Positions 20,496-47,036 of a stretch of DNA of 64,000 nucleotides are shown piece after piece. The DNA lies in contig NZ_RHWX01000003.1 in assembly GCF_003938605.1 (NCBI RefSeq), positions 1 to 64,000 of the forward strand, written 5' to 3'. The translations under genes and the position numbers were made by a program. The number at the start of each line of letters is the position of its first letter. The stretch's first letter is position 1. The stretch comes from Brevundimonas sp. 357. GTDB lineage: Bacteria > Pseudomonadota > Alphaproteobacteria > Caulobacterales > Caulobacteraceae. The notes beneath the pieces are model-generated. The model was not told the DNA's origin. It made no database searches and saw only the letters and a program-made list of their open reading frames with translations.

Positions 20496-21674
20496 TTACG
20501 CCGCCGCCTTCAGCGTCACCGCGTCCAGGGCTTGGGTCAGGTCGGCCAGGATGTCGTCCTGATGCTCCAGCCCGACCGACAGGCGCAGCAGGCCGTCGGT
20601 GATGCCGGCCGTCACGCGGGCCTCGGGCGTCATGGCGGCGTGGGTCATGGTGGCCGGGTGGGCGACCAGGCTTTCGACCCCGCCCAGGGATTCCGCCAGG
20701 GTGAAGACCTCCAGCCGTTCGATCACCTGGCGCACCGCGTCGGTCCCGCCGTTCAGTTCGAAGCTGAGCATGGCGCCCGGCCCCGACTGTTGCCGCGCCG
20801 CCAGGTCGTGGCCGGGATGGCTGGTCAGGCCCGGATAGTGGACGGCTTTGACCGCCGGGTGCAGCTCCAGCACCGCCGCGACCAGGCCGGCCGTCGCCTG
20901 CTGGCGCTCGATGCGGGTGAACAGGGTCCGCAGGCCGCGCAGGGTCTGATAGGCGTCGAACGGCGAGCCGGTGACGCCCAGGCAGTTGGCCCACCAGGCC
21001 AGCTTTTCATGATCGGCCGGATCGGCCGCGACCACGGCGCCGCCGACCACGTCGGAATGGCCGTTGATGTATTTGGTGGTCGAGTGGACCACGATGTCGG
21101 CGCCCAGCTCCAACGGCCGTTGCAGGGCCGGCGACAGGAAGGTGTTGTCGCACACCACCTTGGCCCCCACGGCATGGGCGCGGCGACAGACGTCAGCGAT
21201 GTCGGTGACGCGCAGCAGGGGGTTGGACGGGGTCTCGACCAGCACCAGCTTGCACCCGTCGGCCAGGGCGGCGTCCAGGGCGGGGCCGTCGTTCTGATCG
21301 ACGAAGGCGACGCGGAAGTGACCCTTCTTGGCGCGGGCGCACAGCAGACGGTGCGTACCGCCGTAACAGTCATGCGGCGCGATCAACAGGTCGTCCGGCT
21401 CCAGCAGGCTGAGCGGCAGGTCGACCGCGGCCATGCCGGTGGCGGTGATGACGGCGCCGGCGCCGCCTTCCAGCTCGGCCAGGGTCTCGGCCAGGACGTC
21501 GCGGGTCGGATTGCCCGAGCGCGAATAGTCGTATTTGCGCGGCTGGCCGAAGGCGGCGAAGGAATAGTTGGACGACAGATACAGCGCCGGCATGACCGCG
21601 CCGTGGGCCGTGTCCGTATCGACGCCCGAGCGGGCGGCGATGGTGCGGGGATCGGCGTGACGGGCGCGGCTCAT
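20496..21674 (-). CDS. metB: Cystathionine gamma-synthase / O-acylhomoserine sulfhydrylase-type PLP enzyme
   Basis: This 392-residue enzyme of the Cys/Met metabolism PLP family has the PLP lysine at Lys201 in S-T-T-K-Y-I-N-G-H-S-D. It has Y-S-R-S-G-N-P-T near residue 50 and E-T-P-S-N-P near 147, also in the cofactor site. It would join an O-acyl-homoserine with cysteine (MetB) or sulfide (MetZ). The start ATG overlaps the metX stop (21671-21674), so both are made from one mRNA controlled by the SAM riboswitch. MetB and MetZ activity cannot be told apart from sequence alone. Confidence 0.9.
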   Translation of the reverse strand: MSRARHADPRTIAARSGVDTDTAHGAVMPALYLSSNYSFAAFGQPRKYDYSRSGNPTRDVLAETLAELEGGAGAVITATGMAAVDLPLSLLEPDDLLIAPHDCYGGTHRLLCARAKKGHFRVAFVDQNDGPALDAALADGCKLVLVETPSNPLLRVTDIADVCRRAHAVGAKVVCDNTFLSPALQRPLELGADIVVHSTTKYINGHSDVVGGAVVAADPADHEKLAWWANCLGVTGSPFDAYQTLRGLRTLFTRIERQQATAGLVAAVLELHPAVKAVHYPGLTSHPGHDLAARQQSGPGAMLSFELNGGTDAVRQVIERLEVFTLAESLGGVESLVAHPATMTHAAMTPEARVTAGITDGLLRLSVGLEHQDDILADLTQALDAVTLKAAA

Positions 21675-22792
21675 TGGTCGATGTCCTTCAGTACGGAGGT
21701 GAGGATGTCGGCGACCAGCCTGTCTTCCTTCAGGAAGGCGTCGTGGCCGTAGACGGAGGGGTGTTGTTCAAAGCGCCAGAGGTTGGGCAGACGATCGGCC
21801 AGCTCTCTCATGTCGTCGATGGGGCAGAGGCGGTCGGTGGTGAAGCCGACCAGGGTGACGGGGGCGCTGATCGCCTCGGGCTCGACGCGATGGCGGTCGA
21901 TGGAGTCCGACAGGGTCAGCCAGCGCGAAGGCGTGGTGCGGTCGCGATAGGCCCGGCCGCGCGCCTGCAGATAGTCGCACACCGGATAGGCCTGGCCCGC
22001 GTGGCTGGGAGCCTCGGAATCGAAGCGGTCGCCGAACTCTTCCTGGGTGCGGTAGGTGGTCATGGCCAGTTCGCGCGCCAGACCGACGGCCTGATCGATG
22101 CGGCCGGTCTCAAGACCCAGTTGCAGGATGCGGCGCTGGATGCCGCGCCAGGCCGTGGCCAGCGGATGCGGGCGATGGGCGGCGGAAACCACCACCAGCT
22201 GCTCGGCCCAGTCGGGGAACAACTCGCCGAAGGCCAGGGCGATCATGCCGCCGTAGGAACAGCCGATGAAGGCGGCGACCTTGTCCACGCCCAGATGGTC
22301 CAGCAGCAGGGCCAGAAGCCGCGCCTGATCCTGGGTCGTGATGGTCAGCGGGGTCTTGGCGTCCTTGACGCCTTCGCCGAATTCAGGCGCGAAATCAAAG
22401 GCCAGGACGCGGAAGCGGGTCAGGTCGATCGGGGCGCGCACGCCGACGGCGCCGGACCACCAGCCCAGCCCCTTCGTCTCGGTGCGGTGGACGTAACGGT
22501 CGGCGGAAATGCCGCCTGCGACCACGATCAGGGGGGCGTTAGCCTTGCCGTGCAGGCGGCCGAGGACCCGCTTCTGGGTCAGGGTTCCGCCGAAATCCAG
22601 TTCGAAGCCGTCGGGGATCGCAACCTCGACGTCATGGGCGCCGTCGCGCTGAAGCAGTTCCGACGGACGGCGCGCGGCCTTCACGCCGATCTGGGCGCCG
22701 CCCTTGGGCGCAGGCGCAGCGGCGGAGGCCTTACAGGAAGGCTCTTCGGTGGTTTCGGTGGAAATCAGGGCCAGGGTCATCGCATCACTCAA
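21671..22792 (-). CDS. metX: Homoserine O-acyltransferase MetX
   Basis: This alpha/beta-hydrolase-fold acyltransferase activates homoserine for methionine synthesis. The nucleophile is Ser179 in G-C-S-Y-G-G-M. Late G-F-T-T-D-R-L-C-P and S-V-Y-G-H-D-A-F-L-K-E segments carry the catalytic Asp and His. The first 35 residues are a variable, low-complexity leader. Related MetX-type enzymes use acetyl-CoA or succinyl-CoA, and I cannot decide which here. It heads the metX-metB operon, 60 bp downstream of the riboswitch aptamer. Confidence 0.92.
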   Translation of the reverse strand: MSDAMTLALISTETTEEPSCKASAAAPAPKGGAQIGVKAARRPSELLQRDGAHDVEVAIPDGFELDFGGTLTQKRVLGRLHGKANAPLIVVAGGISADRYVHRTETKGLGWWSGAVGVRAPIDLTRFRVLAFDFAPEFGEGVKDAKTPLTITTQDQARLLALLLDHLGVDKVAAFIGCSYGGMIALAFGELFPDWAEQLVVVSAAHRPHPLATAWRGIQRRILQLGLETGRIDQAVGLARELAMTTYRTQEEFGDRFDSEAPSHAGQAYPVCDYLQARGRAYRDRTTPSRWLTLSDSIDRHRVEPEAISAPVTLVGFTTDRLCPIDDMRELADRLPNLWRFEQHPSVYGHDAFLKEDRLVADILTSVLKDIDQ

Positions 22793-22852: not shown

Positions 22853-22986
22853 GCTCCACCCATCTCTCGCGGTCCTTTCAGGCAAGCCCGAAGAACCCCG
22901 CAGGAGTTGGCACCGTTTCGGGCGGAACCCGATGGTTGCCCCGGCGTCAAAGGGCCTAATCCCTCAGCCGGTCTTGATGAGTGAGC
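22853..22986 (-). promoter_or_regulatory. SAM riboswitch (S-box / SAM-I type) upstream of metX
   Basis: On the minus strand the aptamer core has the S-box hallmarks in order: CTCATCAAGA, GAGGGA, GGCCC, TGA, GCCGG and GCAACC. The conserved core is at 22934-22965. The P1 helix closes between GCTCAC-TCATC (5' end at 22986) and GATG-GGTGGAGC (3' end at 22853). S-boxes bind S-adenosylmethionine and shut off methionine genes. The 60 bp to the start codon include a weaker hairpin (about GGTTTCGCC...GAACC) but no T-run, so control of translation initiation is likelier than termination. Confidence 0.9.
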
Positions 22987-23193
22987 TTACGGTGCGGTTG
23001 CGAAGAGCGCCGGTCAAGCGAAAAATTTCACCCCATTTTTGCGCATGTGGTTCATGTGAGTGGCGAAAACGGCGTCCTGAGACGATGTTGCGAAAAATTC
23101 TTTCGAGACGGGGTTGACGCGGCGCGGCGCCCTGGCTCACCCTAAGGCACGATTTTCAACCGGACGCCGCCTGTGCCTTACCGCCTCGCCAGC

Positions 23194-23295
23194 ATGAAGA
23201 CGACCGCGATCGCCGCCTCGGCGACGGGCCTCTTCGCGTCCATGATTACGACCACCGGTACCACCACCATGCCCTTGCGGGCGGGGACCGGATGA
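23194..23295 (+). CDS. thrL: Threonine attenuator leader peptide
   Basis: A 33-residue frame starts at ATG 23194 and contains 10 threonines, clustered as M-I-T-T-T-G-T-T-T-M at residues 17-26. It ends at TGA 23293, 40 bp before a strong terminator and 132 bp before the homoserine dehydrogenase gene. This is the classical layout of a transcription attenuator: scarce Thr-tRNA stalls the ribosome at the Thr run, freeing CGGGCGGG (23278-23285) to pair with CCCGCCCG (23335-23342) and so break the terminator. A TTGACG (23114-23119) could be the -35 of its promoter. The sequence does not resemble the enteric thrL, so the architecture evolved separately or diverged far. Confidence 0.85.
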   Translation: MKTTAIAASATGLFASMITTTGTTTMPLRAGTG

Positions 23296-23334
23296 TGCGC
23301 GCCGTCTAGGCGAGAAAACGCAGAAAACCGATCA

Positions 23335-23362
23335 CCCGCCCGGACCCCCGGGCGGGTTTTTT
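23335..23362 (+). terminator. Attenuator terminator before the homoserine dehydrogenase gene
   Basis: Perfect nine-base stem CCCGCCCGG (23335-23343) with CCGGGCGGG (23348-23356), loop of four, followed by six T. It lies between the threonine-rich leader peptide and the structural gene. The 5' arm is also complementary to 23278-23285 near the leader's end, which gives the alternative antiterminator. Confidence 0.88.
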
Positions 23363-23427
23363 ATTGGCCCGAACCCACCTCCGACCTCTCCCGAAATCCT
23401 CCCAGATCCAGCCTTCAGGAAACGCCC

Positions 23428-25166: not shown

Positions 25167-26129
25167 ATGGCCGTTTTCACGCCCGTCACGCCGCAACAGG
25201 CCGACGACTATCTCATGCGCTACCCTCTCGGCGGGTTGGTCGAACTGACCCCGATCGCCGAGGGGGTCGAGAACACCAACTATCGCCTGGTCACGGAGCA
25301 GGGCGCCTATGTCCTGACCCTGTTCGAGGGGCGGACCGAGGCCTCGGCCCTGCCGTTCTGCCTCGGCCTGACAGGGCGGCTGGCGGCGCAGGGCTTCCCG
25401 ACGCCTGCGCCGGTGGCGGACCTGCACGGCCAAATGATCGGCCGCCTGAACGACCGCGCCGCCGCCATCGTCGAATGGACGCCCGGCGCCTGGAAGCGCC
25501 AGCCGACGGACAAGGATCAGTATCGCGCCGGTCAGGTGCTGGCGCTGCTGCATCTGGATGCGGCCGACTATGACGGCGTGCGCGAGAATCCGGTCGGGCC
25601 GCGCGCCTGGGCGAACCTGGCCGCACGTTGCGATACGGTCGCTGTGGGCGAGGATCGCCGGATGCTGGAGCAGATGCAGCGCCTGCTGCCGGACCTAGCC
25701 CGGCCGTGGAGCGATCCCGCCTTGCCGCGCGGGCCGATCCACGCCGATTACTTCCCCGATAACGTCCTGTTCGCGACGAACGAGCATGGGGCGACGGATG
25801 TGGGGGGCGTGATCGACTTCTATTTCGCCTGCGTCGACGTGCTGGCCTATGACCTGGCCATCGCGCTCAGCGCCTGGGGGTTCGACGCCGAGGGGCGGCC
25901 CATGCCGTCGGCTCTGCGCGCCTTCCAGAAGGGCTATGAGTCGGTGCGACCCCTGTCGGGCGCCGAGCGCAAGGCCCTGCCGGAACTCGGTGCGGCGGCG
26001 GTGGTGCGCTTCACCCTGACGCGCCTGCATGACCGGCTGTTCCATGACCCGGCCAATCTGGTCACGCCCAAGGATCCGACGCCCTTCTTCCGGCGACTGG
26101 ACTACTGGAAGGCGGCGGAGCCGGCCTGA
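25167..26129 (+). CDS. thrB: Homoserine kinase ThrB (APH-like type)
   Basis: This 320-residue kinase of the aminoglycoside-phosphotransferase fold phosphorylates homoserine on the way to threonine. It has E-G-V-E-N-T-N-Y near residue 32. The catalytic loop H-A-D-Y-F-P-D-N is near residue 192, and D-F-Y-F-A near 217 binds metal. This type replaces the GHMP-type ThrB in many alphaproteobacteria. The start ATG is 2 bp after the fused dehydrogenase stop, so the two form a threonine operon under the attenuator. Its 3' end overlaps the convergent exporter gene by 28 bp. Confidence 0.93.
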   Translation: MAVFTPVTPQQADDYLMRYPLGGLVELTPIAEGVENTNYRLVTEQGAYVLTLFEGRTEASALPFCLGLTGRLAAQGFPTPAPVADLHGQMIGRLNDRAAAIVEWTPGAWKRQPTDKDQYRAGQVLALLHLDAADYDGVRENPVGPRAWANLAARCDTVAVGEDRRMLEQMQRLLPDLARPWSDPALPRGPIHADYFPDNVLFATNEHGATDVGGVIDFYFACVDVLAYDLAIALSAWGFDAEGRPMPSALRAFQKGYESVRPLSGAERKALPELGAAAVVRFTLTRLHDRLFHDPANLVTPKDPTPFFRRLDYWKAAEPA

Positions 26130-46823: not shown

Positions 46824-47036
46824 CCCCGCTGTCCTGAAGCCTGAGAGATTCCGACCGTTCCCTCCCAAGGGGCGGCCTTGCTCCGTCGGCGCGCCCTCGG
46901 ATTCTTGACGATCCTTCGGCGACTTTCCAGCGTCCGTGCGCTTTCGCGGTCCTTTTGCCTGAGCGTTTCCGGGGCGGTTGCGCCTTCGGCTCCGGGCGCC
47001 GCGAACGGACCCGATCTCTCCCGCGAGAGCGTTCGA
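46824..47036 (-). promoter_or_regulatory. Tandem glycine riboswitch upstream of gcvT
   Basis: Read on the minus strand, two glycine aptamers follow each other. The first shows GCTCTCGCGGGAGAG, GGCGCC-GAAGG-CGCAACCGCC and CTCAGGCAAAAGGACCGC. A linker follows. The second shows CTGGAAAG, GCCGACGGAGCAAGG, GGAATCTCTCAGGC and TTCAGGACAGCGGGGG. The conserved C-T-C-A-G-G-C blocks are at about 46842-46848 (second) and 46957-46963 (first). These switch on gcv genes when glycine is high. The 51 bp after the second aptamer probably forms the expression platform. Confidence 0.93.

Follow-up and report, generated by a model that had tools for sequence, protein, structure and literature searches.

The closest described counterpart of the element reported here is the thr leader of Escherichia coli, thrL, represented in Rfam by the model RF00506 (Thr_leader). 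For thrL, Elf and Ehrenberg, in the part of their account dealing with this leader, give eight ACC codons and explain the codon bias by selective charging of isoacceptors (PMC1183508); its Thr codons, as counted here, are seven ACC and one ACA. The Rfam amino-acid leaders may have a gammaproteobacterial origin with very few transfers, according to the passages concerned in Sun et al. 2013, where a table includes four Caulobacterales genomes (PMC3766115). Among alphaproteobacteria, leader peptides have been described in Sinorhizobium meliloti, namely peTrpL and SEP5, the latter containing six Thr and three Lys codons and preceding an aspartate dehydrogenase gene; the leader role of SEP5 is only suggested in that description (PMC10117765). 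In the window, that is, the whole stretch of 64,000 nt from Brevundimonas sp. 357 that was analysed, we describe an element upstream of thrA–thrB that, with a probability of roughly 0.9, is a ribosome-mediated transcription attenuator of these two genes, sensing charged tRNA-Thr. The mechanism is a known one and its prediction here is well supported, in a lineage for which searches of an open-access library by title and abstract (a scope outside which the survey of Vitreschak et al. 2004 falls) gave no report of a thr attenuator, either in Brevundimonas or in Caulobacter.

Leader, terminator and neighbouring genes in the window

An earlier note, made from the letters of the window, had described a leader of 33 residues with 10 Thr, and this open reading frame is indeed present, translating from ATG 23194 to TGA 23293–23295 as MKTTAIAASATGLFASMITTTGTTTMPLRAGTG with Thr at 10 of its 33 positions; the length is less secure, as the leader probably starts at GTG 23173 and would then have 40 codons (Table 1). 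The upstream start is favoured because a start codon chosen mechanically 3' of a TTGAC box is GTG 23173 in the window. The same choice, entered with 46 leaders, gave starts in 44 (GTG 31, TTG 10, ATG 3), at a distance of 55–64 nt from the box in 36 of the 44. The box is present in 45 of the 46 nonredundant leaders, L070 being the one without it, and in L009 an inner TTGAC was chosen, with no start after it. No promoter was found upstream of the leader in a scan with a consensus of the E. coli type.

Table 1 Features of the predicted attenuator and its surroundings.
Feature	Coordinates	Strand	Basis
Putative promoter: TTGACG 23114–23119, 18 nt, CACCCT 23138–23143	23114–23143	+	TTGAC box in relatives
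Leader ORF	23173–23295	+	Likely start GTG 23173 (40 codons); start in the earlier note ATG 23194 (33 codons); stop TGA 23293–23295
Regulatory codon cluster M-I-T-T-T-G-T-T-T-M	23242–23271	+	Sequence reading; comparison of 66 leaders
Antiterminator strand CGGGCGGG, within final leader codons	23278–23285	+	Exact complement of 23335–23342
Terminator 5' arm, doubling as antiterminator partner	23334–23343	+	Terminator detection, folding, relatives
Terminator 3' arm (23348–23357) and T-run (23357–23362)	23348–23362	+	Sequence reading, terminator detection
thrA: fused aspartokinase-homoserine dehydrogenase, 578 aa	23428–25164	+	Pfam, NCBIfam; ACT domain none detected
thrB: homoserine kinase, thrB_alt type	25167–26129	+	TIGR00938 (NCBIfam) and PRK05231, both over cut-offs
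metX (to 22792) and cystathionine gamma-synthase gene, here called metZ (20496–21674)	20496–22792	−	Pfam/NCBIfam; divergent from thrA
SAM riboswitch of the divergent metX–metZ operon	22857–22983	−	RF00162, 77.9 bits

The cluster M-I-T-T-T-G-T-T-T-M was found where the earlier note had placed it, and Thr-rich leaders occur in all of the 66 leader rows compared, with 6–10 Thr in the last 30 residues; these rows comprise the window, 61 of the loci L001–L066, L070 and L111–L113, of which L112 duplicates L047. Within the clusters, ACC makes up 246 of 271 Thr codons, versus 91 of 161 in eight genes of the window (Fisher p 3e-16, for sequences that are not independent). In synonymous shuffles, a protecting 1:2 hairpin showed no selection beyond the peptide (mean z 0.26; p ≤ 0.05 in 1 of 46), nor does it account for the ACC bias.

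Past the stop codon, where a strong terminator at about 40 bp had been claimed, lies a stem of 10 pairs, nine of them G–C, closed by a loop of 4 nt (23334–23357) and running into the T-run, at a stop-to-stem distance of 38 nt; across the 66 rows this gap is 29–39 nt, with stem energies of −16.8 to −27.6 kcal/mol. The exact competing pairing likewise holds, as CGGGCGGG in the leader tail and CCCGCCCG at 23335–23342 in the 5' arm are complementary at 8 of 8 positions, and the tail–arm pairing is stronger than in 200 tail shuffles (p ≤ 0.05) in 62 of the 66 rows, with L032, L054, L060 and L066 above this threshold. In L070 the pairing is retained with different letters (p 0.03), the sole strongly sequence-diverged case that keeps it. 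The alternative pairing and the terminator are mutually exclusive, which is characteristic of the Thr attenuator class, and this holds without covariation backing: in an alignment of 45 sequences double changes were seen at one of the 10 terminator pairs and at none of the eight antiterminator pairs, neither figure being above shuffles. With so little variation in the arms, the compensatory changes that the earlier note suggested looking for in a comparative alignment are all but absent.

By folding, an RNA that stops short of the 3' arm and has its tail free takes the antiterminator fold, and an RNA with the tail removed takes the terminator fold. The minimum for a complete RNA starting at 23276 or 23278 is the antiterminator; for the full-length RNA with 23268–23364 free it is the terminator (−45.0 versus −42.1, 2.9 kcal/mol better), and the full-length leader RNA, untranslated, also folds with the terminator. 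Since the start of folding sets the minimum (23268 versus 23276/23278), the outcome depends on the fold start and on timing.

The genes downstream of the leader are threonine-making ones, as in the Thr attenuator class, and thrB adjoins thrA in 59 of the 62 leader loci among L001–L066, the others being L039 and L060, which end early, and L043, which gave no match. ACT domains were not detected in the ThrA of the window, whereas the ThrA of E. coli, taken as a control, did show them. The SAM riboswitch and the predicted Thr attenuator stand back to back in one intergenic region. Next door to the leader, metX is divergent in 52 of the 62 leader loci, and a SAM riboswitch was present on the met side in all 10 of these 52 that were given to Rfam (L004, L010, L012, L018, L027, L032, L033, L034, L043 and L065); Rfam gave none in four loci that lack a nearby metX (L042, L047, L053 and L055), in L070, the sequence of which begins close to metX, or in the short L113. 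Elsewhere in the window, a glycine riboswitch aptamer was found on the minus strand at 46937–47033 (RF00504, 61.3 bits).

Distribution among thrA and hom loci

Upstream DNA could be read at 64 of the thrA loci L001–L066, L007 and L057 being cut short there, and the detector gave both leader and terminator at 61 of these 64. Of the remaining three, L031 has the leader and a terminator with only four T, missed by the detector, and L059 and L061 have neither. The named records of the close relatives are mostly Brevundimonas; L070, in which leader and terminator are also present, belongs to a distant proteobacterium. For a chance control, the window and L001–L066 (67 sequences, 549,389 bases, 84 terminators) were scanned for open reading frames that have a stretch of 10 residues with 5 or more Thr and end shortly 5' of a terminator. 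Such frames numbered 59, once each in 59 sequences, all on the thrA strand and with the stem 63–167 nt upstream of thrA. Within 260 nt upstream of thrA lie 61 of the 84 terminators, and none of the 23 outside this zone, a small control, is preceded by a Thr-run frame. Runs of other residues in the same scan (A 3, H 3, G 10, L 1, R 1) fell partly at the very same leaders. The model RF00506 scored 13.3 bits on the window (E 7, at 23234–23363), below its gathering cut-off of 55 bits, and exceeded the cut-off in none of 101 genomes of the genus; its sub-threshold matches are scattered and are given no weight as support.

The leader is absent at all 13 distinct Caulobacteraceae hom/thrA loci with metZ upstream on the same strand (L059, L061, which is identical with L080, and L100–L110), and a SAM riboswitch lies upstream in 9 of 9 metZ-linked loci tested, before metX in L059, L061 and all seven extended hom loci. 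A terminator-like hairpin without a Thr open reading frame is present in L100 and L101. Between metZ and hom in the seven extended hom loci, 5 Thr nowhere fall within 10 residues; L145 and L146 have such a stretch elsewhere. The exception to the metZ pattern is L070, with the order metX, metZ, leader, thrA, where at positions 2600–2800 a Thr/Ile leader, MTIIITTTMTTTT, and a terminator are followed by an ACT-less aspartokinase-homoserine dehydrogenase.

A met-linked homoserine dehydrogenase was observed in some Brevundimonas (L141–L147) behind SAM riboswitch–metX–metZ, with the thrA fusion elsewhere or missing. It is 46–57% identical to the fusion, mostly to its dehydrogenase half, and about 110–360 nt separate the metZ match from the hom match. 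Both kinds of gene, the thrA fusion and the met-linked hom, are carried by the genomes G117 and G189.

At the other Caulobacteraceae loci (17 of group g14, two of group g3 and 26 other hom loci), no leader was found within up to 600 nt upstream; L089 and L128 each have, far upstream, a frame with 4 Thr in 10. In both g3 loci metX diverges from thrA, yet the leader is missing, and therefore the divergent layout alone does not go with the attenuator. No terminator was found at nine planctomycete-type loci (L067–L069, L072–L077). In two of these, L072 and L073, a metZ-like frame upstream of thrA ends Thr-rich, with 7 and 6 Thr in 10. In a class-wide search (E ≤ 1e-70, at most three candidates scored per genome), 2 of 385 genomes gave matches, both of this genus; as few Caulobacteraceae were sampled and fused relatives occur in other genera of the family, this search says little on spread.

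Amino acids sensed and frame translated

It is possible, although we consider it doubtful, that the leader is a joint sensor of Thr, Ile and Met, all of them made from homoserine, and not of Thr alone. In the last 20 codons of the 46 nonredundant leaders Thr accounts for 34.5%, Met for 8.5% and Ile for 8.0%, versus 4.8, 1.9 and 3.3% in the eight window genes, and the ThrA of the window is the only PF00742 match in its genome, i.e., the sole homoserine dehydrogenase found there. However, Gly is enriched too (19% versus 8.8%), so that composition near the ACC/ATG codons may explain part of the excess, and the leaders of G117 and G189, judged by eye without a count, retain a Met codon in the cluster despite the met-linked hom in these genomes.

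Less probable, and in our judgment unlikely, is that the element acts mainly in trans, as a terminated small RNA or a small protein, with attenuation secondary. The rnTrpL/peTrpL system of S. meliloti, as far as it is described in PMC10117765, provides a precedent; against this stands the leader comparison, in which the 5' portion before the cluster is variable, whereas the Thr cluster, the tail and the terminator are conserved, a pattern still compatible with a role in trans.

A his-type leader, translated in the overlapping His-rich frame, has very little probability. In this frame the ACC/ATC runs read CAC/CAT, His occupies two core columns, one in 43 and the other in 44 of the 46 leaders, and the comparison of codon columns finds it as conserved at the core as the Thr frame; nor do the pN/pS values of 20 pairs single out the Thr frame (0.76, with 0.72 and 1.16 in the other two). 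Owing to this ambiguity at the codon columns, starts and stops were compared in the 66 rows: a start with a fitting stop exists in 66 of 66 for the Thr frame, in four for the His frame and in none for the Pro frame, and a start codon as such, whatever the stop, in 35 for the His frame and seven for the Pro frame. As the rows had been picked by Thr density and by a stop at most 110 nt from the terminator, the choice favours the stop of the Thr frame but not its start. Further against the His frame, the downstream genes are thrA–thrB, with no his gene, and the same overlap is seen in thrL of E. coli. The start/stop comparison and the gene context together favour the Thr frame.

That the terminator is a chance one, or an unrelated one of an upstream transcript, beside a low-complexity frame is improbable in the extreme, as the lack of an RF00506 match above cut-off is outweighed by recurrence at thrA only, by the narrow spacing and by the tail–arm pairing. 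The reading of the element as a Thr attenuator, proposed in the earlier note, is accordingly the one favoured by the recurrence of leader, terminator and pairing across the genus, by their position on thrA–thrB and by the comparison of frames.

Predicted mechanism and comparison with known systems

What the sequence itself shows is an open reading frame, a terminator and a pairing that excludes it, all of them recurrent and linked to thrA–thrB. The leader would be translated, and the steps of stalling and read-through, together with the direction of the response, may be envisaged as follows. With sufficient Thr, the ribosome would pass the Thr codons, reach the stop and cover 23278–23285, whereupon the 5' arm (23334–23343) would pair with 23348–23357 and transcription would end at the T-run. 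With Thr in short supply, the ribosome would stall in the ACC codons and leave 23278–23285 free for pairing with 23335–23342 once the latter is made, and the polymerase would continue into thrA–thrB. With ribosome footprints of the usual size, 23278–23285 would be covered when the ribosome is at the stop and uncovered when it is stalled at most of the Thr codons (23248–23268).

The prediction extends a textbook regulator to an alphaproteobacterial group in which the curated RNA model fails to see it. As the predicted Thr attenuator and the SAM riboswitch lie on opposite sides of one intergenic region, the way in which homoserine is divided between threonine and methionine becomes testable as a competition between two RNA devices, which would centre on an enzyme without detected ACT domains. 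We speculate, with less than even confidence, that feedback on the homoserine branch in Brevundimonas has moved from allostery to RNA, placing the ACT-less fusion under a Thr (perhaps Thr/Ile/Met) attenuator and the met branch under the SAM riboswitch, with genomes that have two dehydrogenases, as seen in G117 and G189, putting one under each, and that the attenuator has an origin independent of its enteric counterpart.

The leader resembles peTrpL and SEP5 in being a short open reading frame in which codons for the relevant amino acid are clustered, located 5' of a biosynthetic gene (in the portions of PMC10117765 concerned), and differs from SEP5 in its terminator, none being mentioned for SEP5 in those portions. 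Unlike the E. coli system, the leader is 40 codons long, provided that it starts at the GTG, instead of 21, the distance from stop to stem is 38 nt instead of 24, the enzyme encoded downstream has 578 aa without detected ACT domains instead of 820 aa with them, and thrC is separate, on the opposite strand. In common with thrL, it has an ACC-rich run of Thr/Ile codons, an overlapping reading in the His frame, and an antiterminator strand that is located in the final leader codons (GGTGCGGGC before TGA in thrL) and is the exact complement of the terminator 5' arm; as in the thr operon of E. coli, the gene predicted to be controlled encodes an aspartokinase-homoserine dehydrogenase and is followed by thrB.
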